Shown in pieces: positions 7,233-22,980 of a stretch of 64,000 nt of DNA. Position numbers and translations under genes: made by a program. This DNA comes from Candidatus Bathyarchaeota archaeon (GTDB taxonomy: Archaea; Thermoproteota; Bathyarchaeia; Bathyarchaeales; Bathycorpusculaceae): NCBI GenBank assembly GCA_018396675.1, contig JAGTQX010000003.1, positions 62,001 through 126,000 on the forward strand. Reading direction: 5' to 3'. The notes under the pieces were generated by a model. The model was not told where the DNA came from and ran no database searches. It was given only the letters and a program-made list of their open reading frames with translations. Positions within the stretch are counted from its first letter, which is position 1, and each line of letters begins with the position of its first letter.

Positions 7233-8315
7233 TTAAGCCAGTTTTTCGCCGCAGTTACCGCAGAATTTTGTTCCAGGCGGATTTTTTGCGCCACATTTTG
7301 GACATGTGACTTCTGCTCCAGCCGACTGGGTTAGCGGCGAACCACAGTTGCCGCAGAACTTCATGCCCGCTGGGTTTTCTGCTCCACATTTTGGGCATTT
7401 AACTTTTGCGGGGGGTGCCAAGCTTGAGCCGCAGTTACCGCAGAATTTCATGCCTATAGGGTTTTTGGCTCCGCAGTTTGGACAAACGATTAGTTGTTGG
7501 GCTTGAGCCGCTTGAGCTTGCTGCATTTGTTGTGCCATTAGGAAAGGCATAGTTAAGCCTACGCCTGCGCCTACGCCGGCGGCTGCTGCGCCGCCTCCTT
7601 CGCCTCCTTTAAGTTCGCCAGCTGTTTCCTTCATGTACTGCATCATCATAGCTTGGGCGCCGATTCCGGATGCAAACCTTCTAGCCTCTTCTGGGATGTT
7701 TATGCCTTCAAAGAGGCAATCTATTATTTTTAAGCCGACTCTGGCTGCTTCGTCGCTTATTTTCAATGTCACCTTGTCTGTCGTGGCGTCAGCGTTTTTA
7801 ACAACCTCGAATATGTCGTGATTTCCAAACTCGCTTATTATGCGCTCGTTTATGAACCCTCTAATGTAGTTTTCCACGTCCCGCGATGTGCTTGCGCCCC
7901 TGTTGCCGAAAAACTCTACAACAAAAAGTTTCGGATCTTCAACTTTGTAAAGTAGGTAACCATAAAACCCAATTTCAGCCTGGTATTTTATGTCTCCGCT
8001 CGGTGCAGAGTAGGCTTTTCCGCCGAAGTTGGCGCGGAACTGGCTGTTGCTTACAAAAACTACTTCACAGTCGAATATGTCGCCTATAATGCCTAAAGCC
8101 TTTAATGCGCCAGTTAAAAGCGGAATATTGTTGCTGGTTATAGTGTGTCTTCCAGGTCCGAAAACGTCGTAGGCCTTGCCGTCGCGGAAGAAAACTGCCC
8201 ACTGGTTCTCCATAACTATTACTTGGCTTCCATACTTAAGCGTCAATTTTGGAAAACGGTAGGCTATGTCTTCTGGTTTAGCGTTGTCCCATGCTACTCT
8301 TTCAATTATTGGCAT
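7233..8315 (-). CDS. SPFH/Band 7 domain protein with C-terminal zinc ribbons
   Basis: 360 residues. The first 220 form a stomatin-like SPFH domain of the YdjI/virion-core-like group, with the early K-Y-G-S-Q-V-I-V-M-E-N-Q-W-A-V-F-F strand pattern and G-P-G-R-H. A glycine/alanine-rich linker with V-G-L-T-M-P-F-L-M-A and a Gln/Ala-rich coil follows (about 235-275). Three C-x2-C...C-x2-C zinc ribbons close the protein (about 278-358), each with the K-F-C-G-N-C-G core. The family assembles on membranes; its partner or cargo here is unknown. It is preceded in an operon by a 175-residue gene ending 5 bases upstream, and it faces its small zinc-ribbon paralogue. Confidence 0.85.
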   Translation of the reverse strand: MPIIERVAWDNAKPEDIAYRFPKLTLKYGSQVIVMENQWAVFFRDGKAYDVFGPGRHTITSNNIPLLTGALKALGIIGDIFDCEVVFVSNSQFRANFGGKAYSAPSGDIKYQAEIGFYGYLLYKVEDPKLFVVEFFGNRGASTSRDVENYIRGFINERIISEFGNHDIFEVVKNADATTDKVTLKISDEAARVGLKIIDCLFEGINIPEEARRFASGIGAQAMMMQYMKETAGELKGGEGGGAAAAGVGAGVGLTMPFLMAQQMQQAQAAQAQQLIVCPNCGAKNPIGMKFCGNCGSSLAPPAKVKCPKCGAENPAGMKFCGNCGSPLTQSAGAEVTCPKCGAKNPPGTKFCGNCGEKLA

Positions 8316-8918: not shown

Positions 8919-9605
8919 CTACTTCAAGATTAGCGGGTAAACCTCCGCGGTCACGTATTCAAGATATTTTTCCTTGTCTGTGAGGTTGAAAATTGTTACC
9001 GAAGCGTCACGGGTTACTCCAACCACGTAACCGTACTCTTTGGCCCTAGCGACAACATACCACAAGTCGCCGTGCTTGCAATAGTCTTCGAAAAGTGAAG
9101 TGTTAATGAGGTCTGGCCCGTAAAGAGAAAGCTTGTTCACATTTGGGATATCTACATTGTCGAAAAACGTGATTTTTGTGTCCTCCGGATTTTTCAGGTG
9201 AAAATCCCTCAAGGTTTCGGGTGGGATGCGCGCTTCCACTATGCCGCCTATTCGGTCAAAAATGATTTCGCTTAGTTTGTTGGCAATAAAATTGGCGAGG
9301 CGCTTCTTCTCAACAACAGTTAAAAATGTGGAGTCTTCCAGCTGAGCAAAACTGAAAACCGCCTCAACAGTGCGTGGCAAAGGCACAACTTTACCCCTGT
9401 GAAAGACGTGAATTACATAGTCATGCGAGTAAACTCCTCTAAGCAGGTTCGCCTTTGGCAGAAGCCCCACAACTTCGGTTACAAGCGTAAATTTGTAGTC
9501 GCCCTCCTCGTAAGCCTCTTCAGTGCGATAGCCTTCAATTCTAGAAGCAACCTCGGCAACGGAAAGCGGTTCTGAAAGCCGGAAAACCTTACCTGCAACA
9601 ACCAT
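8919..9605 (-). CDS. Unrecognised protein divergent from the SMC-like operon
   Basis: About 228 residues, soluble, mixed alpha/beta. The start is set by AGGTGAT at 9611-9617: the ATG at 9605 is five bases away, while a TTG directly upstream would be too close. It has no cysteine cluster or nucleotide-binding loop. The beginning (G-K-V-F-R-L-S-E-P-L-S-V-A-E-V-A) resembles a regulated beta domain, and the end contains several short strands. It is divergent from the SMC-like triad and could be a regulator or extra component. Nothing in the sequence proves this. Confidence 0.65.
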   Translation of the reverse strand: MVVAGKVFRLSEPLSVAEVASRIEGYRTEEAYEEGDYKFTLVTEVVGLLPKANLLRGVYSHDYVIHVFHRGKVVPLPRTVEAVFSFAQLEDSTFLTVVEKKRLANFIANKLSEIIFDRIGGIVEARIPPETLRDFHLKNPEDTKITFFDNVDIPNVNKLSLYGPDLINTSLFEDYCKHGDLWYVVARAKEYGYVVGVTRDASVTIFNLTDKEKYLEYVTAEVYPLILK

Positions 9606-9770
9606 CAAGCATCACCTAAGCGGTACTCTATATTCATTCAGTCATAAAAGACTAAAGGTTTACGCTCAAAACCGCCCATTGAAAGGCTCAAGCTTAACAT
9701 AATCGTTTTAATAAGAGTTTTTAACCTCTATTTAATACTGCATAGAAGCGCCTAGAGGCAAAGAAAACAG
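9606..9770. promoter_or_regulatory. Divergent intergenic promoter region before the SMC-like operon
   Basis: 165 bases. TATA-like stretches on the plus strand occur at about 9706-9715 (TTTTAATAAG) and 9729-9737 (TATTTAATA). The second would start transcription about 10 bases before the ATG at 9771, giving a nearly leaderless message. No palindromic operator was found. Confidence 0.3.
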
Positions 9771-11693
9771 ATGCTAATTCAAGAGGTTATACTTGAAAAC
9801 TTCATGAGCTACGAGTACGCTAGAGTACCGTTTAAACCTGGCGTTAACGTGATTTGCGGTCCGAACGGCGCTGGAAAATCTTCGCTTTTGCTGGCTATTT
9901 CCGTGGCCTTAGGACAGTCTTACACTGAACGGTCAAGAAAGCTTAGCGACTTGATACGTTGGGGAAAAGACCAAGCCCGCGTCACGCTTATACTTGATAA
10001 CTCGAAAAGAGGCGGCAGGAGACCAGTTCCAAAGTTTAGCAGAGACCAAATTTTTTTGACGCGTATTTTGAGGCGTGACGGCAAATACTGGTTTGAACTT
10101 GAGAATCGTGCCGCCACCAAACAGGATGTTGAGAGACTTCTGGCTAAGTTGGGCGTTGACCCTGATAACATGCTGATTATCATGCATCAAAACATGGTTG
10201 AACAGTTTACGGTGCTTTCTCCACAGGAAAAGCTGCGGATGGTTGAGGCTGCTGTGGGGCTTGAGGCTTACCGTGAAAATGTGCTTGAAGCTCAAAAGAA
10301 GCTTACGCGAACTTTAAGCCAAGAAGAATCGGTAGGCAAGCTTTTGGAGTCAGCTGAGCAGACGTTGAACTACTGGAGAGAGCAATATGACAGGTTTCAA
10401 GAGAAGAAGCAGTTGATGGCGAAGAGACGGTTTTTAGAACGTGAACTCGCATGGGCAGAAGTCAACCGCCGAGAAAGTACGCTTAAAGAGTTAGAGGCCA
10501 ACCGCGAAAAAGAATTGGCTGTTTTAAACGAAATTGAGGCAGAAGCAAAAACAGCAGATTCGAATCTACAGATTCAGCATAGCCAACTTGAAAAGCTGAA
10601 GAATGATTGGAAAAGAAGCCTAGACGAGAAAATAGGTTTTGAACGTGAAAAGGCGGGAAGCCAAGCGACAATTTGGCTATGTGAACAGTTGCTTACAGAG
10701 GCAGCTATGGTTGAAAACGAAATTCACGGTAGCGGTAAACACTTCAAACTTTTGAAAACTGAAAGCCTAAAAGAACTTATAGAAAACTCGCGGCAGAGAA
10801 TCTCTAAATTTGATGAAGAGTTAAACAGAAGACAAATGGAAACAAGAATTCTTGAAGATGAAATCGAAAAAGTTGGAAACCAAATTCTCGAAACGCGTGT
10901 TAAATTGGCACTGCTACAGTATCGAATGGAGAACGCGAAGACAAACATTGAACGGCTGGAAAGAGAGCTTAAAGACGCTAAGACACAGCTTGAAATAGCC
11001 TTTAAAAAAGCTGAAGAAAACGGACCGAGAATTGCTGTGATAAAAAGCGTTGGAGAAATCCTTGAAGAGATGCGTATCACAGACGGGCATTTGGCTGCTC
11101 TGTCAGGCGTTTCAGAAGATGTAGAACGTATGTATGAATCTTACTCGAAGCTTTACTTTGAGCTTAAAGAAAAGGCGCAGTTGGTTGCTGAAAACCGTGA
11201 AAAGGCTTTGGAAGAGGTTAAAACGCGGATGCAGTCTTGGCGAACCGTAATTCAGAGTCTCCTAGACCGCGTAAACCTTGAGTACCAGAAGGTTCTTGCT
11301 CAGTCTCAAGCGGTGGGCGAGGTTAAGCTGATAAACGAGCATGACATAGAGGCTGCTGGACTCGAAATTCTCGTAGGCTTTAAAGGTGGGAAACCAGTTC
11401 CACTGAATGCTTACACGCAAAGTGGAGGAGAAAGAACGACGGCGACTATGAGTTTTCTCTTGGCGCTGCAACAGCACGTACGTTCGCCTTTCCGCGCCGT
11501 GGACGAGTATGACGTGCACATGGACCCGAAAAACCGCGAGTTAATCGCTCAAACGCTGATTTCAACCGTTAAAAACGCTAACGCACAGTATGTTGTGATA
11601 ACTCCAAGTCAAATAACATTCACGCAGGACAACGTCAACATCGTGACTGTTCAGAACATTGAAGGGAAATCCATAATCAGAGAGGTTGCCTAA
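9771..11693 (+). CDS. Compact SMC ATPase, Smc5/6-like
   Basis: 640 residues, about half the usual SMC length. The N-terminal ATPase lobe has the P-loop G-P-N-G-A-G-K-S-S (30-38) and a Q-loop-type M-H-Q-N-M-V-E-Q-F-T segment (about 140). A coiled-coil region follows (about 170-400). The C-terminal lobe reads like Smc5/6: a W...L-L-D-R-V-N helix, G-E-V-K-L, the signature Q-S-G-G-E-R (550-555) followed by T-M-S-F-L-L-A-L-Q, then Walker B P-F-R-A-V-D-E-Y-D-V-H-M-D-P (about 573-586). Q-S-G-G-E-R and M-D-P-x-N-R are Smc5-like; D-E-Y-D-V-H-M-D is Smc6-like. No clear globular hinge is seen. The next gene starts inside its stop codon. Expected role is DNA loop extrusion, tethering or repair. An orphan Rad50/RecN-type ATPase is the alternative, but neither usually has a kleisin-like neighbour. 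Confidence 0.85.
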   Translation: MLIQEVILENFMSYEYARVPFKPGVNVICGPNGAGKSSLLLAISVALGQSYTERSRKLSDLIRWGKDQARVTLILDNSKRGGRRPVPKFSRDQIFLTRILRRDGKYWFELENRAATKQDVERLLAKLGVDPDNMLIIMHQNMVEQFTVLSPQEKLRMVEAAVGLEAYRENVLEAQKKLTRTLSQEESVGKLLESAEQTLNYWREQYDRFQEKKQLMAKRRFLERELAWAEVNRRESTLKELEANREKELAVLNEIEAEAKTADSNLQIQHSQLEKLKNDWKRSLDEKIGFEREKAGSQATIWLCEQLLTEAAMVENEIHGSGKHFKLLKTESLKELIENSRQRISKFDEELNRRQMETRILEDEIEKVGNQILETRVKLALLQYRMENAKTNIERLERELKDAKTQLEIAFKKAEENGPRIAVIKSVGEILEEMRITDGHLAALSGVSEDVERMYESYSKLYFELKEKAQLVAENREKALEEVKTRMQSWRTVIQSLLDRVNLEYQKVLAQSQAVGEVKLINEHDIEAAGLEILVGFKGGKPVPLNAYTQSGGERTTATMSFLLALQQHVRSPFRAVDEYDVHMDPKNRELIAQTLISTVKNANAQYVVITPSQITFTQDNVNIVTVQNIEGKSIIREVA

Positions 11694-12520
11694 TGCAGTC
11701 AAAAAGGGAACACATCAAGGCTGGAAGAGAGAGGCTTCAACGCGTAATTGAAACATGCAGGTCTGTAGAGGAGCGTTCGTTAGACCCTTTCCTTATAGAC
11801 GTTAACGAAATCATCAAGATTGTTAGGGAATTTTTTCCGGAATGGGAGCAGCCTGAAGACCTGTGTTTGGATGCCGAAGCAATAAACCGTTTAGCTTCTG
11901 TGATAAGACTTCAAAGCGAATGGGTTAGACATCGTTCCACATCACTTTACACCGACCCCTTCCTTCTAGAGGAGAAAATAAAAAAACTGGACAAAGAGGA
12001 GCTAGTTGACGCTTTTATTCAGGCTTGGCATCCAATGGTTGAGCTTGAACAGATTTCGCTTCACAGCATTGCAGAGTCGCTGCGTTACTGGGAAAGTCTC
12101 CCGCCGCTGAAAGACCGATGGAAAGAATTGCCAATACAACAGGTTGAAAGCGGTTCAGCCACACGTGAAGAACTGATAAAGCAGAGGATTCTCCGCGACA
12201 AAGCCTTCACAGAAGAACTGGAAAACTTTTGGAACGAACTCAAAAAGTTTGCAGTTGAAAAGGGCGAAAATGGAAAGGTAGGATATTGGGATTTTGTCGG
12301 CGCAGAAACTTATGATGAAACCGTTCACAGAGCCTTCATGACGAGCTTTTTAGTCACCTACGGCTACGCTACGCTTGAAATTCACCCGCTTGAAGAAGAA
12401 ACCTATATTGTGCCATACGAAAAACAACAGAGGCAAACAGCCAAAAAACAGTTGGTTTCAATACCAATAGCCATAACCTTCGAAGACTGGAAGAAATGGA
12501 GAGAAAGGGGACACACATAA
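11693..12520 (+). CDS. Kleisin-like (ScpA/Nse4-type) partner of the SMC-like ATPase
   Basis: 275 residues. It starts at an ATG overlapping the SMC stop (TAATG) with GAGGTT at 11682. The N-terminal part resembles kleisin N-domains: D-P-F-L-I-D-V-N-E-I (about 31-40) then a long helix (about 61-85) ending in a K/R-rich S-x-x-L-Y-T-D-P-F. The middle is charged linker. The C-terminal 80 residues read like the ScpA winged helix that binds the SMC cap: H-R-A-F-M-T-S-F-L-V-T-Y-G-Y-A-T-L-E-I (about 206-224), then E-E-E-T-Y-I-V-P. The assignment comes from pattern and gene order, not an obvious family match, and is an inference. Confidence 0.6.
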   Translation: MQSKREHIKAGRERLQRVIETCRSVEERSLDPFLIDVNEIIKIVREFFPEWEQPEDLCLDAEAINRLASVIRLQSEWVRHRSTSLYTDPFLLEEKIKKLDKEELVDAFIQAWHPMVELEQISLHSIAESLRYWESLPPLKDRWKELPIQQVESGSATREELIKQRILRDKAFTEELENFWNELKKFAVEKGENGKVGYWDFVGAETYDETVHRAFMTSFLVTYGYATLEIHPLEEETYIVPYEKQQRQTAKKQLVSIPIAITFEDWKKWRERGHT

Positions 12521-13075
12521 ATGAGTAAGAGAAAAGCTTACTACGCGAACAAAATGAAACGCGCGGTTCACATGCTATTCTACCGCAGACATAAGAAGCC
12601 CGGCGTTAAGGGATGGGAACTTCGCAAAGCCTTGGGCGCAGACTACCCGAAAGTTTTAGGAATACTGGACGAATACTTGAAAGCGCTTGACCTGCAAGTT
12701 AAAACGGTTTTTGAAGAGGAAACGCCTTCCGAAAAGCCGACCTTGGAACAGCTTGACAGAGCAAGATTCTACATAACATTGCGTGGCGAACTCGCTCCGA
12801 AAGAGACGAAGATGATTGGCTGGCGAATAGACGACTTGGCAGGACTAGCCGTGACCATAGCATACATAATATCAAAAAAAGGCAAAGCACCACGCAAAGA
12901 AGTGGAAGAACTGCTGCGGGAAAAATTGCCTGGATGGAAAGTTGGCTTAAACATCGACCGCTACATACGTTATGGATACTTAACGCAAGACGAAAACGAA
13001 CAGTTGTATTTGGACTGGCGGACACGCGCAGAAATAGACCAAAAAGCGCTAATAGACTTTCTTATGGCAAAGTAG
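12521..13075 (+). CDS. Tandem winged-helix KITE protein (ScpB/MAGE-Nse3-like)
   Basis: 184 residues, starting directly after the kleisin-like stop. Two winged-helix units are visible: residues about 10-70 (helix, G-W-E-L-R-K-A-L, then L-D-E-Y-L-K-A-L-D-L-Q-V) and about 105-175. The second unit runs L-A-G-L-A-V-T-I-A-Y-I-I-S-K-K-G-K-A-P, a helix, Y-I-R-Y-G-Y-L-T, a beta wing, then L-D-W-R-T-R-A-E-I-D. That last run is close to the G-P-R-A stretch ending MAGE/Nse3 domains. Known KITE proteins dimerise and sit on the kleisin middle region in bacterial ScpB and eukaryotic Nse1/Nse3. Gene order SMC-kleisin-KITE supports this. Homology is inferred and needs profile or structure comparison. Confidence 0.6.
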   Translation: MSKRKAYYANKMKRAVHMLFYRRHKKPGVKGWELRKALGADYPKVLGILDEYLKALDLQVKTVFEEETPSEKPTLEQLDRARFYITLRGELAPKETKMIGWRIDDLAGLAVTIAYIISKKGKAPRKEVEELLREKLPGWKVGLNIDRYIRYGYLTQDENEQLYLDWRTRAEIDQKALIDFLMAK

Positions 13076-15000: not shown

Positions 15001-15332
15001 TCGCTTCCTCCACTTGACTCTTCTGTTTCCTCTGAAACGATTAGTTTAAGAATTTCTGAATCGCCGGGTTCTCTTATAGTTAACGCTGAAAGTACGAAGG
15101 GTTTTCCGCAGACTGCGGCCAAATCCGTTGATGAACCCTTGTAAACAATTAAGGGAACGTTAGAAAGCCTACAGTAATATTCCAAGTCTCTGCGAATTTC
15201 CTCTGGACAGTTGGAAGAAACAATCACCATTTTAGCTTTCCCAGTTTTAGCATTCTGTATGGCTGAGTTTGCGCCGAAGTGGACCTTACCCGTTTTCACA
15301 GCTGTTGCAATGGCTTTATCGACATCGATCAT
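14997..15332 (-). CDS. rpl30e: Ribosomal protein eL30
   Basis: 111 residues of the L7Ae/L30e fold, with F-G-A-N-S-A-I-Q-N-A-K near the start and the C-x-L-S-N-V-P-L-I-V-Y-K-G-S-S-T-D-L segment characteristic of eL30 (about 53-71). The acidic C-terminal tail is longer than in many archaea. It sits in its usual archaeal place between rpoA and nusA, overlapping each by four bases. Confidence 0.93.
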   Translation of the reverse strand: MIDVDKAIATAVKTGKVHFGANSAIQNAKTGKAKMVIVSSNCPEEIRRDLEYYCRLSNVPLIVYKGSSTDLAAVCGKPFVLSALTIREPGDSEILKLIVSEETEESSGGSE

Positions 15333-18300
15333 TTGTTTTCCTTCTCCTCCTTCTTTAACTCTGATGTGGACATGAACAATTCCACCAAACCAGTGCCAAC
15401 TGGAATAGATTGGCCGACTATAACATTTTCAGTTACGCCTTCAAGCGGGTCGCTTTCTCCTTTGATGGCTGCGTCGACAATGTTTGGAACAGTTATTTCA
15501 AAGGCTGCCCGCGCCAAGACGCTGGCTTTTTTGCCGCTTATGCCATGTCTTCCAATTTGTTGCACTTCGCCAGTGGCGGTCATCATATCTGCAACAAGCA
15601 TCACATGGCGTACGTCGACATCTAATCCTTGCTCTTCCAACACGTGTTTAGCCTCTTGTATGAGAACATTCCGCGCAGCTTCTATTCCCAGCGTCTTAGC
15701 GATTTCGTGAATGTTGTTTGTCGTTGTTCTTGTGGTGTCAACACCATATACTTCTAAAACTTTTGGAAGGTTGGAACCGTCGGTTCTTATGACCCACTCG
15801 CCATGTTCTTCGGTTATAAGGACACGCTTTATGCCTGGAACTCCCTTAATGTAGAATGCAGAAGCCTTGTCAAGAAGTTTTTTGAGAATTTCAACTTTTT
15901 TGGGCTTTATATGTATGCGGTTTCCGCTTATTTTCACGGTGCAGTTCGCCATTTTCACTTTGTCCTTTAGCTCCTGCAGAGTTACTCCGCGGTCCTCCAT
16001 CATTGTCTTGTTGAGTTCTACAACTATTTCTTCGCGGACTGGGTCTTGATAAATTGCTTGTGACACATTCTCCAGTGTTGTGTAAAGGATATCCCGCGCG
16101 ATTTTAACGGCGGCTTCTCTGCTTTTCCTATGCTTCTCGTCTAGGTAGATAACCATGATTGGTGTTGACGGAACACGCCTAGCGTCCACGATTTCTATGA
16201 GTCTGGGCAATCCAAGGGTCACGTTTTGTTCTCTAACTCCAGCATAGTGGAACGTTCTAAGCGTCATCTGTGTTCCAGGCTCGCCTATAGATTGAGCGGA
16301 AACTATGCCTACTGCTTCGCCGGGCTCCATCAAAGCGCGTTTATAATGTTCCACGGTTAAAGCTATAGCTTTGTCAACGCCTTCTTTGCTTAGTTTAGCT
16401 TCAGCTAATCCCTGTTTTAGCTCGCTTAACAGCAACGGAGTCAACTGGTCTTCAACTTCTTTAAGCTTATCTTTAACATACTCAGGAGATGCCGGTTTAC
16501 CTTTCTCCATTCCGATTCTTATCTGCTCGATTAAACGGCTAACGTTGACAGCTCGTCCATGGTCGCTTTTGGCTGGGTCAACGCCGTCTTCGCCGTATTT
16601 GAATTGGATTATGTCTCCAGCGGAGCTTCTGACGGTTCCGTCGTATTCTAGACGTAAATGTTCAAGCGCGTTAATTAAGCGTCTCTGCATGTAACCGCTT
16701 TGCTGCGTCCTAACGGCGGTGTCTACCAAACCTTCTCTTCCACCCATAGCATGGAAGAAAAATTCAACACAGTCCAGTCCTTTTTGGTATGAGGAGTAAA
16801 CGAAGCCTCTGGCTTTCGGTCTGGGGTCGCCAATCTTAAAGTGTGGCAAAGCTCTGCCCAAGTATCCACGCATTATTCTTTTTCCACGTACTGCTTGTTG
16901 TCCAACGCATGCACTCATTTGGCCAATGTTTAGGCTTGAGCCGCGGGCGCCGGTGCGCGTCATAACTATGCCAGCGTTTTCGAGGGTGAAGTCTTCGTCA
17001 GCTATTTTTCCAGATTCGTCTCTTGCTTTGGCTAACTCGTTCATAACATAGATTTCAAATGAGTCTTCGAGGGTTTGTCCTGGAAGTCTTGGCAATGTGC
17101 CGTTGCGGTAGCTTTCTATAAGTTCCGCTATTTTTTGTTCTGTCCGTTCCATGACCTTTTTTATCTTGTTTTCAGCTGCTGGCGAAAGCACAAGCTCCTC
17201 GTAAGCGTATGTAAAGCCGCGCATTGTTATGAAAATCTTCAGTAAACGCGTGATTTTGTTTATGAATTCGCGTCCAGCTTCTGTTCCATAATCTTTGATT
17301 ATTCTGTGAAGGAGGCTTTCTGACTGTTCAGCGCCTATGGAGCGTCGGTCAATCACACCGCATTTAAGTTCACCGTTTTTTACAACAACATAAGCGTCGT
17401 AGGGGCATTCTTCTTTCAAGCATTTTGCGCATCCGCGGCATGTGCTTGCCTTCAAAACATAGTTCAAGTCTCTTGGCAGAAAGAGACTGAAAATCTGCTT
17501 GCCGCTCCATAATGGTTGAGGTTCTTTGATTTGCGGTTCAGGTATAGGTCCATCGTAACGCGCGCCTATCAACAATCTGTTAACTTCTTCTTTTGTCAAG
17601 TAGCTGGATTTTCTGGTGAATAGGTAAGCGGCTGTTATGAAGTCTCTGATTGCGCCTATTATTGGACCTCCGAACCTCGGAGAAAGTATCTGGTCTTGAA
17701 CTTGCATTAGCATGCGCGCTTCTGTTTGGGCTTCTTCGCTTTGAGGGATGTGAAGGTTCATTTCGTCTCCGTCGAAGTCCGCGTTGTATGGCGGACAAAC
17801 ACATAAATGAAGCCTAAAAGTCTTGTATGGAAGAACACGCACACGATGCGCCATAATTGACATTCTGTGAAGTGACGGTTGACGGTTAAAAATCGCTATG
17901 TCTCCGTTTCTGAGATGCCTCTCCACGATGAAGCCGGGTTCAATGGCTTCGGCGATTTTCTCTCTGTCTGTTACAAACTCAAGCCTTATGCGTTTACCGT
18001 CTGGGCGAATAATGTAAAGTGCACCTGGATAATTGGAAGGCCCATTTATGACAAGTTTGCGCACTTCTTCAATGTTCCATGGAGTTACTTTTTCGGGAAC
18101 AGAAAGCCTCATGGCGACTTCGATTGGAACGCCAACCTCGTTTATGTCAAGGTTCGGGTCTGGCGATATAACGGTGCGCGCTGAAAAATCTACACGTTTT
18201 CCGGAAAGGTTGCTTCGGAATCTACCTTCTTTTCCCTTAAGCCTCTGCGAAAGCGTTTTCAAAGCTCTGCCTGAACGATGTCTTGCTGGAGGGATTCCTG

Positions 18301-19156
18301 AAGCTTCGTTGTTGAAGTACGTCGTCACATGGTATTGAAGAAGCTCCGACAAGTCTTGTATTATAAGCGTCGGCGCGCCCGCATCCATGTTTTCCCTTAA
18401 CCTCTGGTTTATTCGTATTATGTCAACAAGCTTGTGTGTTAAATCATCTTCAGAGCGTATGCCAGATTCCAAGGTTATGGATGGGCGCACATACACTGGT
18501 GGAACTGGTAAAACTTGGAGAACCATCCATTCTGGACGTGCAGTTCTAGGGTCGAATCCTAAAAGTTCAAGGTCTTCGTTTGGTATGCGTTCAAGCCTTT
18601 CCCTAACCATGCTTGGGGTTATCTGTTGAGAACCACTTTCTGGGATTTCCTCGCTGAATTTTGTCGGTTTTTCAAACGTTATCTTGTACTGGGGAGCATT
18701 GCAATGCGGACAAGTTTTCGCTTTGGTTTCCTGAACTATACGTTTAAAAATTTCTTCAGGAATTGTTCCTAGAAGCTGACGGGTTTTGTCTATTCTGGCT
18801 CGAAGTTTTTTAACAGAATCTTCCGGGAGAAGTATCCTTCCGCAGTTTCTGCACGTGGTTCTTAAAAGGTCGTAGATTATTTTGGAGAATTCTATGTGAA
18901 TTATTGGAACCGCGAGTTCTATGTGACCGAAATGTCCTGGGCAACGTATTGCCGTGTTTCCGCATGTTTTGCATCGTTGTCTCGGTTCAAGGGTTCCAAG
19001 TCTTCCATCCATTAGTCCTGCAGTGATTGGGGCACCGTCTTCATCGTAAGTGTCTGGTGTTTGAATTTCAACAACTGAAAGTTTGCGTATTTCTTGCGGA
19101 GAGAACAAGCCGAAACGGATTTCGTCAACAACCTTATGGGAGACTTCAACTGCCAT
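15329..19156 (-). CDS. rpoA: RNA polymerase subunit Rpo1, unsplit (A' plus A'')
   Basis: About 1275 residues in one chain. Most Euryarchaeota and Crenarchaeota split this subunit; unsplit forms are known from Thaumarchaeota, Aigarchaeota, Korarchaeota and eukaryotes. The catalytic magnesium loop N-A-D-F-D-G-D is about one third in. Zinc motifs C-K-T-C...C-P-G-H and C-R-N-C are near the N-terminus, and a C-R-G-C-A-K-C...C-P cluster lies about residue 590. The A'' part starts around E-V-E-D-Q-L-T-P and contains the bridge-helix/trigger-loop region G-E-P-G-T-Q-M-T-L-R-T-F-H. The start is the ATG at 19156, supported by GGAGAG about 8 bases upstream, not the longer reading to 19192 inside rpoB. 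Confidence 0.96.
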   Translation of the reverse strand: MAVEVSHKVVDEIRFGLFSPQEIRKLSVVEIQTPDTYDEDGAPITAGLMDGRLGTLEPRQRCKTCGNTAIRCPGHFGHIELAVPIIHIEFSKIIYDLLRTTCRNCGRILLPEDSVKKLRARIDKTRQLLGTIPEEIFKRIVQETKAKTCPHCNAPQYKITFEKPTKFSEEIPESGSQQITPSMVRERLERIPNEDLELLGFDPRTARPEWMVLQVLPVPPVYVRPSITLESGIRSEDDLTHKLVDIIRINQRLRENMDAGAPTLIIQDLSELLQYHVTTYFNNEASGIPPARHRSGRALKTLSQRLKGKEGRFRSNLSGKRVDFSARTVISPDPNLDINEVGVPIEVAMRLSVPEKVTPWNIEEVRKLVINGPSNYPGALYIIRPDGKRIRLEFVTDREKIAEAIEPGFIVERHLRNGDIAIFNRQPSLHRMSIMAHRVRVLPYKTFRLHLCVCPPYNADFDGDEMNLHIPQSEEAQTEARMLMQVQDQILSPRFGGPIIGAIRDFITAAYLFTRKSSYLTKEEVNRLLIGARYDGPIPEPQIKEPQPLWSGKQIFSLFLPRDLNYVLKASTCRGCAKCLKEECPYDAYVVVKNGELKCGVIDRRSIGAEQSESLLHRIIKDYGTEAGREFINKITRLLKIFITMRGFTYAYEELVLSPAAENKIKKVMERTEQKIAELIESYRNGTLPRLPGQTLEDSFEIYVMNELAKARDESGKIADEDFTLENAGIVMTRTGARGSSLNIGQMSACVGQQAVRGKRIMRGYLGRALPHFKIGDPRPKARGFVYSSYQKGLDCVEFFFHAMGGREGLVDTAVRTQQSGYMQRRLINALEHLRLEYDGTVRSSAGDIIQFKYGEDGVDPAKSDHGRAVNVSRLIEQIRIGMEKGKPASPEYVKDKLKEVEDQLTPLLLSELKQGLAEAKLSKEGVDKAIALTVEHYKRALMEPGEAVGIVSAQSIGEPGTQMTLRTFHYAGVREQNVTLGLPRLIEIVDARRVPSTPIMVIYLDEKHRKSREAAVKIARDILYTTLENVSQAIYQDPVREEIVVELNKTMMEDRGVTLQELKDKVKMANCTVKISGNRIHIKPKKVEILKKLLDKASAFYIKGVPGIKRVLITEEHGEWVIRTDGSNLPKVLEVYGVDTTRTTTNNIHEIAKTLGIEAARNVLIQEAKHVLEEQGLDVDVRHVMLVADMMTATGEVQQIGRHGISGKKASVLARAAFEITVPNIVDAAIKGESDPLEGVTENVIVGQSIPVGTGLVELFMSTSELKKEEKENK

Positions 19157-19157
19157 T

Positions 19158-22100
19158 TTACGCTCTCTCCTTAAGCTTAAGTTTTGGAGCAATACAAAGG
19201 CTCATTAATTCTTGCAGTAGAAGCTTGAAAGCGTAAGAAACTGTTACTGGAGAGATTTTAGCCTTGTCTTCGCATATTTTACAGATGTATTTTCTCTGTT
19301 TCATGTCATAATAGGCGATGTAGCCGCAGTTTTCACAAATATACAACGTGTACTTGTCGGATTCTTCTAAAAGCCTGTCATGCAGAAGCATGGCTGCGCC
19401 GTGTCCAATGAGGCAGTCGCGTTCCATTTCTCCGAATCTTAAGCCTCCGCCTCTAGCTCTTCCCTCAGTAGGCTGCCGCGTCAGCATTTGAACTTGACCT
19501 CTCGCTCTCGCATGTATCTTGTCAGCAACCATGTGGTGAAGTTTCTGGTAATAGACAACTCCAACAAAAACGTCTGCAACAAATTTTTCGCCAGTTACAC
19601 CGTTATAGAAAACTTCTCGGCCAGTATGGCTGAATCCGAGCTTCACTAAGGTTTTACGCAGTTCGTCTGGTTTCTCGCTGATGAACGGTGTGCCGTCAAC
19701 CGTTTTCCCTCTTGCAGCGGCAACTTTGCCAGCTAAAGACTCAACAAACTGTCCAATTGTCATTCTTGAGGGGATAGCATGCGGATTAATTATAACGTCT
19801 GGGACTATGCCTTCTTCTGTGAACGGCATATCTTCTTGTGGAACAATCAGTCCAATTACGCCTTTCTGTCCGTGTCGGGACGCAAATTTGTCGCCTAACT
19901 CTGGGATTCTCTGGTCTCGCACGCGAACTTTGACAAGCTTGCTTCCTTCGCCTGATTCTGTTATGAAAATCGCGTCCACTACGCCTGTTTCTGAAGGCCG
20001 CATGTCCACGGATGTGTCGCGCATTGAGGGCCCTTTAACTTCAAATTCCTTGTATTCCTCTAGGAATCTGGGAGGGCTTGTTCTTCCAATTAGGACATCT
20101 CCGCCTGCCACTTGAGCTTCTAAACTAATTATTCCATCGGGTTCAAGCAGCCTATAATATTGTTCTCCTCTGAAGCCTCTTGTTCCCGGTTCAGGTGTAA
20201 CAAATTTGTCTTTTAATCCGCCCATGTATTGGCGGCATTCAGCCTCGTATATTCGGTAGAAGGTTGAGCGTGCTAGGCCTCGTTCTATTGAGGCTTTGTT
20301 GAATATGAGTGCGTCTTCCATATTGTAGCCTTCGAACGAAAGCACGGCAACTATACAGTTTTGTCCCGACGGACGAAGTTTGTATCCCATTGTCTCCATT
20401 AGGGCGGTTTCAACAAGAGGCGTCTGTGGGTAGTGAAGCACATGGGCCCTAGAGTCTACGCGTAATGGAAAATTCGTGGCAAAAATGCCCAAGGCTTGTT
20501 TAGCCATTGCTGCTTGATAAGAGTTGCGTGGCGATTGGTTATGTTCAGCGTATGGTATGGTTGACGCGCAGATTCCAAGAATTGTATGTGTTGCAATTTC
20601 TAGGTGAGTGTGTTCGGGGGTTAGTTCTTCATGGTTTATGGCGACGTAAGCGTTTTCTTCCTCTTCAGCATCCAAATATTCGATTAAGCCGTTTTTGACA
20701 AGGTCCTCCCAAGCCCATTCTCCGCGGGCAATTTTCTCAATATGTTCACGTTGCAGTTTTGGAACACCATTTTCAACTATTATTAGCGGGCGCCTCACTC
20801 TTCCCTCGTCACAGTTCACGTAAACTTCTTCTCTCTCGCCGTGAACCTTAGAAAAGTGGGCAATGTTAACTTCTGTTGAGATTTCGCCGTTTCTCCGTCG
20901 CTGCCTAAACTCTTGCGTCAGCTTTTCAGGCGAAGCGCAGTATCCAACGATGTTTCCGTCAACAAAAACTTTAGCGCCGAAACTTTTCAGAGTCTCATTT
21001 GCTTCGTAAACTGGCGTGACACCCATGCTGAAGAGAACTTGTTTAATCTTTTCTGGATTAACTCCAACAGAAATGCACGCTGACAGGGCCAGGTTTTTCA
21101 CCAAGCCACAGTTTGAGCCTTCAGGGGTTTCGTTTGGGCATAGGCGCCCCCAATGTGTTGGGTGAAGGTCTCTTGCTTCAAAGTTCGGCTGGCTTCTGCT
21201 CAGCGGAGACTGTAATCTCCGCAAGTGGCTTAAGGTTGAAAGGTAATTTGTTCTGTCCAGAAGCTGGGTTACTCCGACTCGTCCTCTTCCCCAGTTTCCA
21301 GTTGCAAGTGCGTGTTGAAGCCTCTCTGTGATTATTCCAGGGCGTACGGCCGCTGAAACGGTTATTATTGGACCTTTGACACCTATTCTTTCAAGCTGAT
21401 ATTTTATATCGCGGATAAGGTTTCTAAAGGCTACGCGGAAGAGGTCAGCCAAAAGCGGGCCTGCAAGCCTCAAACGCTTGTTTTTGAAATGGTCTTTGTC
21501 GTCTGGTTTTCTTCTTCCAAGCTTTAATTCAATTACTCTGCAAGCCATTTCGCCCAAGAATAGAGCCTTGTCTTTTCGGCTTTGGCTTGTTCTGCCTAGA
21601 TGTGGCAAGAAGTTTTTGTCTATTGCGTTTTCAGCCTTTTGTATGCGGTATTCTTCGACTTGTCCGTGGGCTACTCTGTTTCCAATAAAAGTGATTGCAT
21701 CTTTAACAGTGTCGACTCCCACGGCCTTTTCGAAGGACGGTTCCAACTCGCTTTGGATCGCCTCTTCTAGGGAAACTGCCTCGGCGATTTCCTTGTCTGA
21801 CTCCAACCCTAAAGCGCGCATTACGATAACGAAGGGAACTTCTGTTGGCACTCCGGGCAATGTAACGTACAAGGCGCCGTCAGACTTCATTTTAAGCTCT
21901 ATTCTGGCTCTGAATCCAACGGTTGTCGAGAAAAGTTTAGCTTGGTAAACTGGCGTGGCGCCTTTCTCGTCTATATCCACTATTATTCGGTTTGGAGCCA
22001 AGTCCTCCATAGCAACGATTACACGTTCAGAACCGTTTACAACAAAGTAGCCGCCTGGATCGTCTGGGTCTTCTCCGCAGGCTATTAGTTCTTCGCGTGA

Positions 22101-22858: not shown

Positions 22859-22980
22859 GCGGCGGTAGCCAAGCCAGGTCAAAGGCGGAGGACTCAAGAT
22901 CGGCGCTGGAAGGTTTAAAGCCCCTATGAGCCATCCTCTCCCGTAGGGGTTCGCCGGTTCGAATCCGGCCCGCCGCACCA
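22859..22980 (+). tRNA. tRNA-Leu(CAA) with an archaeal intron
   Basis: Acceptor arms GCGGCGG (22859-22865) and CCGCCGC pair fully, followed by A and an encoded CCA. The T arm is G-C-C-G-G-T-T-C-G-A-A-T-C-C-G-G-C. A long variable arm (CCC-GTA-GGG) marks a class II tRNA. The anticodon loop CTCAAGA gives anticodon CAA at 22895-22897, reading UUG leucine. Anticodon stem GAGGA (22888-22892) pairs with TCCTC (22934-22938) only after removing a 34-base intron at 22899-22932, position 37/38. The intron forms a canonical bulge-helix-bulge: CUCA (22893-22896) pairs with UGAG (22927-22930), with three-base bulges AG/A and CC/A at the cut sites. Confidence 0.96.

Follow-up and report, generated by a model that had tools for sequence, protein, structure and literature searches.

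A half-length, hinge-less SMC ATPase encoded in an archaeal operon resembling Smc5/6

Gene organization of the locus

The window analyzed here is a 64,000-nucleotide stretch of the genome of a member of "Candidatus Bathyarchaeota" (GenBank assembly GCA_018396675.1, contig JAGTQX010000003.1, positions 62,001 to 126,000 of the forward strand). It contains three overlapping or abutting genes, referred to below as the trio, that encode an SMC ATPase, a kleisin, and a tandem winged-helix (KITE) protein (Table 1). The SMC stop codon TAA shares its last base with the kleisin ATG, and the ATG of the KITE gene follows the kleisin stop codon with no gap. A divergently transcribed gene upstream encodes a protein of unknown family that is often found near the trio and represents a possible associate. 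This protein has no Pfam match, and searches with its family yield only single-member Pfam hits (the best, to SET_assoc, at 0.0011) and no PDB match.

Table 1. Coordinates of the trio and of its recognized or predicted features (numbering from the first nucleotide of the window)
Feature	Position	Strand	Remarks
Divergent protein of unknown family	8919..9608	-	229 aa
Smc5/6-type SMC ATPase	9771..11693	+	640 aa, half-length
Walker A of the SMC	9858..9881	+	GPNGAGKS, residues 30-37
Tip of the SMC coiled coil	10701..10760	+	residues 311-330; poorly conserved, insertion-prone turn in place of a hinge (45 insertion columns at residues 311-320)
ABC signature to Walker B/D-loop of the SMC	11421..11525	+	SGGERTT...PFRAVDEYDVHMD
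Nse4-type kleisin	11693..12520	+	275 aa
Kleisin N-terminal helical domain with a long third helix	11693..11956	+	from the AlphaFold2 model; predicted to bind an SMC neck, role inferred from known kleisins
Kleisin middle segment	11957..12205	+	residues 89-171; lower-confidence helical region in the model, 74-84 residues long in 49 members; predicted KITE-binding region, role inferred
KITE protein, tandem winged helices related to Nse1/Nse3	12521..13075	+	184 aa
KITE first winged helix	12521..12709	+	residues 1-63; basic (net +11 here, +2 to +15 in 47 members); predicted DNA contact, inferred
KITE second winged helix with C-terminal helices	12821..13072	+	residues 101-184; the part that the Pfam MAGE profile matches in relatives

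SMC ATPase

The SMC has an intact ABC ATPase head with the motifs GPNGAGKSS, TQSGGERTTATMSF, and PFRAVDEYDVHMDPKNR. In alignments with the solved proteins, Smc5 has TQSGGER...PFRVVDE...MDSRN and Smc6 has LDEFDVFMD...NR, confirming the mixed Smc5/Smc6 signature noted in the preliminary description. The patterns GPNG.GKS and SGGER are found in 83 of 83 family members examined, and DE[YF]D.H[ML]D in 78 of 83, whereas looser parts of the signature vary: QSGGER is found in 71 of 83 members and P[FY]RAVDE in 47 of 83. Profile searches show that the ten best solved relatives of the family are all Smc5 or Smc6 (6e-70 to 2e-55), ahead of the first canonical Smc at 1.5e-53.

In the phylogenetic tree, the trio heads group with Smc5 and Smc6 (97/94), apart from canonical SMC and from Rad50/ASRP-like proteins, and a grouping of canonical SMC with Smc5/6 that leaves out the trio is rejected (p 0.0033). 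However, Smc5 and Smc6 form long branches, no Smc1-4 sequences were included, and monophyly of the trio SMCs is supported only at 87/78. The tree places Smc5 nearer the trio than Smc6 (97/87), although a Smc5+Smc6 clade is not rejected (p 0.107). A grouping of canonical SMC with the trio that leaves out Smc5/6 is rejected only just (p 0.0465), and the AU test did not quite reject a trio+Rad50/ASRP grouping (p 0.073). This last result, together with the similar length and an NCBIfam ASRP hit at 1.8e-19, leaves room for an ASRP/coalescin or Rad50-type protein accompanied by two unrelated winged-helix proteins. Such an assignment appears very unlikely: the ASRP score is 69.8 bits against a cut-off of 300, the tree separates the two groups with 100/99 support, and the partners fold as KITE and kleisin in the models described below. 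In addition, no CxxC is present in 45 of 45 trio SMCs, while most ASRP-like proteins fetched from these genomes have one, and the paper that defined ASRPs reports no common flanking genes (PMC9389158).

The SMC is half-length wherever it is intact, and no hinge domain or zinc hook was found in it. The preliminary description had noted the half length and the lack of an evident hinge in this protein; these are family-wide traits and not an oddity of this genome.

Kleisin

The Pfam Nse4_C profile matches residues 205-271 of the window protein at 2.7e-5 (24.8 bits, just under the 26-bit cut-off) and is matched by 48 of 55 relatives at E values up to 0.1. Of the 66 places in 300 genomes where this profile hits, 65 lie in this kleisin, although it also hits, under its cut-off, in one of 14 control genomes. 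Profile searches against the PDB retrieve Nse4 at 9.9e-6 and EID3 (an Nse4) at 1.1e-4, and also reach ScpA weakly (0.011 and 0.016). In the fold search, ranks 1 and 2 are Nse4, and there are further matches to the winged helices of ScpA and Scc1. The model is of moderate quality (pLDDT 77.8, pTM 0.40), and the TM-scores (by query length) of the two Nse4 matches are only 0.30 and 0.22, with an rmsd near 30. The C-terminal winged helix is Nse4-like by sequence, and the model is nearest Nse4.

KITE protein

The assignment of the third protein rests mainly on its predicted fold. Its model (pLDDT 87) has as its four best matches chains of the Nse1-MAGE-G1 and Nse1-Nse3-Nse4 complexes, with TM-scores (by query length) of 0.35-0.65; ScpB is found at rank 8 and MukE at rank 9. 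Sequence support is weak. No credible PDB sequence match was found, the window protein matches no Pfam family, and, in its relatives, a PaaX hit has a lower E value than the weak MAGE and Nse1 hits. The MAGE profile has 19 of its 26 places, including the best 13, in this gene and none in the 14 control genomes. In contrast, the Nse1 profile does not single out the KITE, which accounts for only 5 of 21 places and none of the best four, and it hits in one control genome.

Phyletic distribution and gene neighborhoods

Both partners are kept in 79 of 80 related loci; one locus lacks them, and another has a 2.5-kb insert between the SMC and kleisin genes. The contiguous gene order is seen in 36 of 40 distant loci, gene ends overlap, and pairwise divergence is correlated (r 0.77-0.85 over 41 loci). 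Among 300 genomes of Thermoproteota, 124 have the kleisin and the KITE, which are adjacent in 120 of them, and matches are found in 58-60 of 127 genera. However, the distribution is patchy: 8 of 22 genomes of the window's own family lack all three matches, so the trio is either dispensable there or missing from draft genomes. Some neighbors recur in distant families, and the genomic context includes an Lhr-type helicase in 24 of 66 loci and a topoisomerase IB in 3 of 66.

The patchy presence, as is often seen for defense genes, and the recurrent neighbor of unknown function could indicate a Wadjet- or Lamassu-like system that recognizes and destroys foreign DNA. Indeed, PADLOC models of SMC-like defense ATPases hit the SMC head (mad3 at 2.2e-29, LmuB at 3.4e-22, and JetC at 9e-13), and Wadjet also has kleisin, KITE, and SMC subunits (PMC10586767). 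However, neither the kleisin nor the KITE of the window hits any PADLOC model, and no kleisin match is found in 72,556 plasmid and 50,697 phage records. No nuclease was recognized among the 8 neighboring proteins annotated, although most neighbors were not annotated and JetD was not specifically searched for. The trio is found across the phylum, and a defense role seems improbable.

The genome that contains the window encodes one SMC of this type; its other SMC matches are an ASRP/Rad50-like protein and a separate canonical SMC (a 1187-aa frame) with its own ScpA-like gene downstream. A single KITE match is found in this genome, which is 87.9% complete. In contrast, ten good trio-containing genomes from eight families show no canonical SMC, hinge, or ScpA. 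These genomes, together with the matches to ScpA and ScpB, would fit an archaeal condensin-like chromosome organizer that is a shortened derivative of canonical Smc-ScpA(B) and resembles Smc5/6 only incidentally, and the trio may organize chromosomes where no canonical SMC is detected. This derivation is unlikely, as the heads group with Smc5/6, Nse4 beats ScpA by both sequence and fold, and none of the 14 SMC_ScpA places in 30 genomes falls on a trio kleisin.

Predicted function

Taken together, these data suggest, with a probability of roughly 0.75, that the operon encodes an archaeal SMC-kleisin-KITE complex of the Smc5/6 lineage. In the absence of interaction, ATPase, or DNA-binding data and of a model of the complex, its formation and function are inferred. 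Two copies of the single SMC would engage head to head on ATP, and a KITE homodimer on the kleisin middle segment would close the compartment, with its basic first winged helix over the DNA. With arms of half length and no hinge, the complex probably works as an ATP-gated DNA clamp and not as a hinge-closed ring that extrudes long loops, although tip-to-tip dimerization is not excluded. A precedent is the head-kleisin-KITE state of yeast Smc5/6, which holds DNA between the engaged heads, Nse4, and Nse3 (PMC9191643). Its likely job is chromosomal genome maintenance, handling topologically stressed or branched DNA, and in some lineages it may be the only SMC-kleisin complex.

The preliminary description, which took the three genes for a minimal, probably homodimeric archaeal version of Smc5/6, is thus supported, with homodimerization remaining an inference. 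It requires correction in that a relationship of archaeal SMCs to Smc5/6 was already known (PMC9389158) and in that the complex, lacking a hinge, a second SMC, and a second KITE, is a relative or ancestor-like form and not a true Smc5/6. The partners and the missing hinge may be new: no report of the archaeal partners was seen in the open-licence literature searched, only a small part of which was examined in detail.

A more tentative possibility is that the trio represents the living sister of the ancestor of Smc5/6. In this scenario, the SMC, Nse4, and Nse1/Nse3 core arose in archaea as one SMC, one kleisin, and one KITE that work as a DNA clamp with no hinge and so no closed SMC ring, and in several archaeal lineages it is the only SMC-kleisin complex. 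Eukaryotes would later have duplicated the SMC (Smc5 and Smc6) and the KITE (Nse1 and Nse3) and either kept or regained the hinge.

SMC complexes are usually explained as hinge-closed rings that extrude DNA loops. A conserved complex with a proper kleisin and KITE but no hinge raises the question of whether clamping alone is useful and offers a small system, three short proteins, for testing it. It would place the core of Smc5/6 before eukaryotes, with single genes where eukaryotes have pairs. It also sits badly with the statement that SMC complexes are absent from Thermoproteota (PMC12153180), unless that name is used there in a narrower sense than in GTDB.

Comparison with known systems

The eukaryotic Smc5/6 core (Smc5, Smc6, Nse4, Nse1, and Nse3) shares with the trio the SMC head lineage, the Nse4-type kleisin, and the Nse1/Nse3-type KITE fold. 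The trio differs in having one SMC gene with half-length arms and no hinge and one KITE with no RING match.

Archaeal "SMC5/6-related" SMCs that form a clade with Smc5 and Smc6 have been described previously (Yoshinaga and Inagaki 2021, as cited in PMC9389158), and the SMC of the window is probably one of them. The passages of PMC9389158 examined mention no kleisin, KITE, or missing hinge for these proteins, and the word "kleisin" does not occur in that paper.

Canonical archaeal Smc-ScpA, present in the same genome, is a homodimeric SMC with a kleisin, as is inferred for the trio. However, its SMC is about 1180 aa long and has a hinge, its kleisin is of the ScpA type, and a 2020 study found it in archaea generally without a KITE subunit (PMC7055376), so that the trio would supply a KITE-bearing complex for archaea.

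SMC variants without a hinge and without a zinc hook are also known from marine Actinomycetes (PMC12153180). These are bacterial, and their partners are not described; "kleisin" does not occur in that paper. Bacterial Smc-ScpAB, MukBEF, and Wadjet JetABC combine SMC, kleisin, and KITE subunits, and the KITE model of the trio also matches ScpB and MukE, whereas Wadjet adds the nuclease JetD (PMC10586767).

Genomic organization
The SMC, kleisin, and KITE genes are located exactly where the preliminary description placed them. The SMC and kleisin genes overlap by one base, and the kleisin and KITE genes abut. The assembly to which they belong comprises 1.31 Mb in 15 contigs and is 87.9% complete. 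A search with the SMC retained the best 80 of 268 relatives. All 80 record titles are archaeal, most of them Bathyarchaeota or Bathyarchaeia. Two assemblies supply two trio loci each (loci L037 and L048 in one, L051 and L057 in the other), which might represent either two copies or mixed bins.

The window also contains a 119-base tRNA that is found by Rfam but not by ARAGORN and is probably a tRNA gene with an intron. A 1,287-aa open reading frame (ORF) resembles the largest subunit of RNA polymerase, with both halves in one gene (motif NADFDGDEMNLHIPQ).

Locations of the trio genes and of other features in the window, its genome, and related loci
Sequence	Coordinates	Strand	Feature
Window	9771-11693	+	SMC
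Window	11693-12520	+	Kleisin
Window	12521-13075	+	KITE
Window	7233-8315	-	360-aa protein ending in several zinc-ribbon-like CxxC pairs
Window	8919-9608	-	229-aa protein of unknown family
Window	15329-19192	-	1287-aa ORF resembling the RNA polymerase largest subunit
Window	22859-22977	+	tRNA, probably with an intron
Same genome (G000:C10)	127005-128786		ASRP-like protein with a CxxC (possible zinc hook), about 1 kb past the window end
Locus L049	2027-4072		SMC kept, no kleisin or KITE match on the stretch
Locus L076	10047-12581		2.5-kb insert between SMC and kleisin
Locus L184	92-772		Canonical SMC gene roughly 7 kb from the trio
Locus L186	3-560		Canonical SMC gene roughly 7 kb from the trio
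Locus L187	4891-6435	-	Eukaryote-type topoisomerase IB
Locus L188	4435-5997	-	Eukaryote-type topoisomerase IB
Locus L189	9776-11326	+	Eukaryote-type topoisomerase IB
Locus L187	9777-12677	-	Helicase of about 950 aa
Locus L198	12119-13993	-	Type IA topoisomerase

SMC protein
The SMC matches the Pfam SMC_N family with an E value of 6e-37, and no hinge domain is found among its 14 Pfam families. Both halves of the ATPase are in one chain, as the GPNG.GKS and SGGER motifs are found in 83 of 83 members. In comparisons with solved structures, the single protein hits Smc5 first (9.5e-29). A profile built from 45 family members has Smc5 and Smc6 in the ten best rows (6e-70 to 2e-55), followed by a canonical Smc at 1.5e-53. 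In a tree of 45 head sequences, the 20 trio SMCs group with yeast Smc5 and Smc6 (support 97/94), apart from 14 canonical SMCs (100/99) and 9 Rad50/ASRP-like proteins (100/99). Smc5 is nearer to the trio than Smc6 (97/87), whereas the trio alone has a support of 87/78. In the AU tests, a grouping of canonical SMCs with Smc5/6 without the trio had a P value of 0.0033, Smc5 plus Smc6 as one clade 0.107, canonical plus trio 0.0465, and trio plus Rad50/ASRP 0.073. Thus, the affinity is well supported, although the two yeast sequences form long branches and no Smc1-4 sequences were included in the tree.

The ORFs encoding this SMC are 613 to 695 aa long in the 80 loci, two of which (L033 and L037) were left out of the SMC alignment because a stop was met in the extracted frame. 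They are 570 to 699 aa long in 38 of 39 distant operons with all three genes; the remaining one is 468 aa and cut by its contig end. Some shorter frames (for example, 306, 438, and 460 aa) are listed in fragmented genomes. A search of 42 chosen genomes for the Pfam SMC_hinge domain found 17 places in 16 genomes, none of them at a trio SMC. The middle of the protein is a variable, insertion-rich turn, and no CxxC motif occurs in 45 of 45 members.

Kleisin
The kleisin matches the Pfam Nse4_C domain with an E value of 2.7e-5 and a score of 24.8 bits, just under the curated cutoff of 26. This profile matches 48 of 55 close relatives at E values up to 0.1 and 33 of 49 proteins of the deeper set at E values up to 1. 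In a blind search of 300 Thermoproteota genomes, Nse4_C matches 66 at E values up to 0.01, with 11 matches over the cutoff (including the window's own, 27.1 bits in that search) and a best E value of 2.4e-9. One of 14 control genomes also gives a match, under the cutoff. Of the 66 places, 65 are within this kleisin gene. A deep profile hits Nse4 (9.9e-6) and EID3 (1.1e-4), and then ScpA (0.011 and 0.016). In a fold search with the AlphaFold2 model (pLDDT 77.8, pTM 0.40), Nse4 chains occupy ranks 1 and 2 (4.7e-5 and 1.8e-4, with 289 and 299 alignment columns including gaps), followed mostly by other kleisins to rank 13. However, the overall superposition is poor (TM 0.30 and 0.22, rmsd 28 and 31), so the match rests on the domains and not on their arrangement.

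KITE protein
No Pfam family is recognized in the KITE of the window, and no credible sequence match is found in the PDB. In a deeper set of 47 proteins, MAGE matches 12 (best E value, 2.8e-4), SMC_Nse1 matches 10 (6.5e-4), and PaaX matches 3 (1.8e-4). A search of the 300 genomes for MAGE gives 26 places, 19 of them in this gene, including the best 13, with one genome over the cutoff and none of 14 controls. In contrast, SMC_Nse1 gives 21 places, only 5 of them in this gene and none of the best four, and also matches one control genome. The structural model is good (pLDDT 87.2) and has two winged helices. Its four best fold matches are chains of the MAGE-G1-NSE1 and Nse1-Nse3-Nse4 complexes (4e-5 to 2e-4; TM by query, 0.35 to 0.65); ranks 5 to 7 are cullin complexes, whereas rank 8 is ScpB and rank 9 is MukE. 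Only one KITE was found in the window's genome, hence the inferred homodimer. The first 63 residues are net basic in all 47 members (median, +8).

Conservation of the gene order
Kleisin and KITE are found downstream of the SMC in 79 of 80 loci, mostly with overlapping or touching ends. The exception is L049. Among the 300 genomes, the kleisin profile matches 127 and the KITE profile matches 125; 124 genomes have both, and in 120 of these they are adjacent on one strand. The SMC profile finds 128 at E values up to 1e-40. Of 40 distant regions, chosen as one or a few per family, 36 have contiguous SMC, kleisin, and KITE genes. In three (L190, L202, and L207), the SMC lies apart from kleisin-KITE on the other strand, and one region ends with its contig. 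Divergence of the three proteins is correlated over 41 loci (r = 0.83, 0.77, and 0.85, with 0 of 2,000 permutations as high in each case), although shared ancestry alone could also give this result. Against universality, 8 of 22 sampled genomes of the window's own family have none of the three matches.

Other SMC-related proteins in the same genomes
The window's genome also encodes a canonical SMC, with a ScpA-like gene downstream of it, and an ASRP-like protein. In two families of the same class, represented by L184 and L186, a canonical SMC gene is found roughly 7 kb from the trio. Of 40 chosen genomes, 30 with the trio and 10 without, canonical SMC was found at E values up to 1e-60 in 18 of the 30 and 8 of the 10. 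The hinge was found in 16 of 42 genomes and ScpA in 12 of 30. Ten trio-bearing genomes from eight families (G004, G014, G030, G115, G008, G062, G189, G109, G218, and G248), each at least 90% complete with at most 5% contamination, show none of the three. Two similar genomes, G216 (76% complete) and G246 (9% contaminated), were left out of that count. The hinge and ScpA models are weak in distant lineages (genome G085 has a canonical SMC but neither match), so this claim rests mainly on the search for canonical SMC. Further, some of the ten genomes (G004, G014, G030, G109, and G248) do encode ASRP-like proteins and are therefore not without SMC relatives.

Genomic neighborhood
Neighboring genes were compared in 66 loci (40 distant ones, 25 of the 80 close ones, and the window). 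A helicase cluster is found in 24 of them, across distant families, always downstream of the kleisin-KITE side and on the opposite strand in 23. Two of its members were annotated and are of the Lhr type. The 229-aa protein family, without a recognized Pfam family or PDB match, is found in 26 loci, in 21 of them upstream on the opposite strand. A eukaryote-type topoisomerase IB (one of the three was annotated, the others were assigned by similarity) is directly divergent from the trio SMC in three genomes of one family. In L198, a type IA topoisomerase (Topoisom_bac, 1.3e-115) lies a few kilobases beyond the KITE. The helicase and topoisomerase IB neighbors suit DNA repair or topology but provide only context.

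Comparison with known SMC complexes
Archaeal "SMC5/6-related" SMCs that form a clade with Smc5 and Smc6 have been described previously (PMC9389158, after Yoshinaga and Inagaki 2021), whereas no report of this operon was found in searches of an open-licence library. Archaeal Smc-ScpA has been argued to generally lack a KITE (PMC7055376). Hinge-less SMCs have been described in marine Actinomycetes (PMC12153180). The same work states that SMC complexes are absent from Thermoproteota, which does not fit the matches reported here if the name is meant in the GTDB sense.

In yeast Smc5/6, the DNA is held between engaged heads, the Nse4 kleisin, and Nse3 (PMC9191643), and the hinge is not part of that clamp as described there. 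The corresponding parts are all present in the archaeal trio. We therefore infer that the trio forms an ATP-gated clamp made of two SMC heads, one kleisin, and two KITEs, with the stoichiometry, the DNA clamping, and the role all being inferred.
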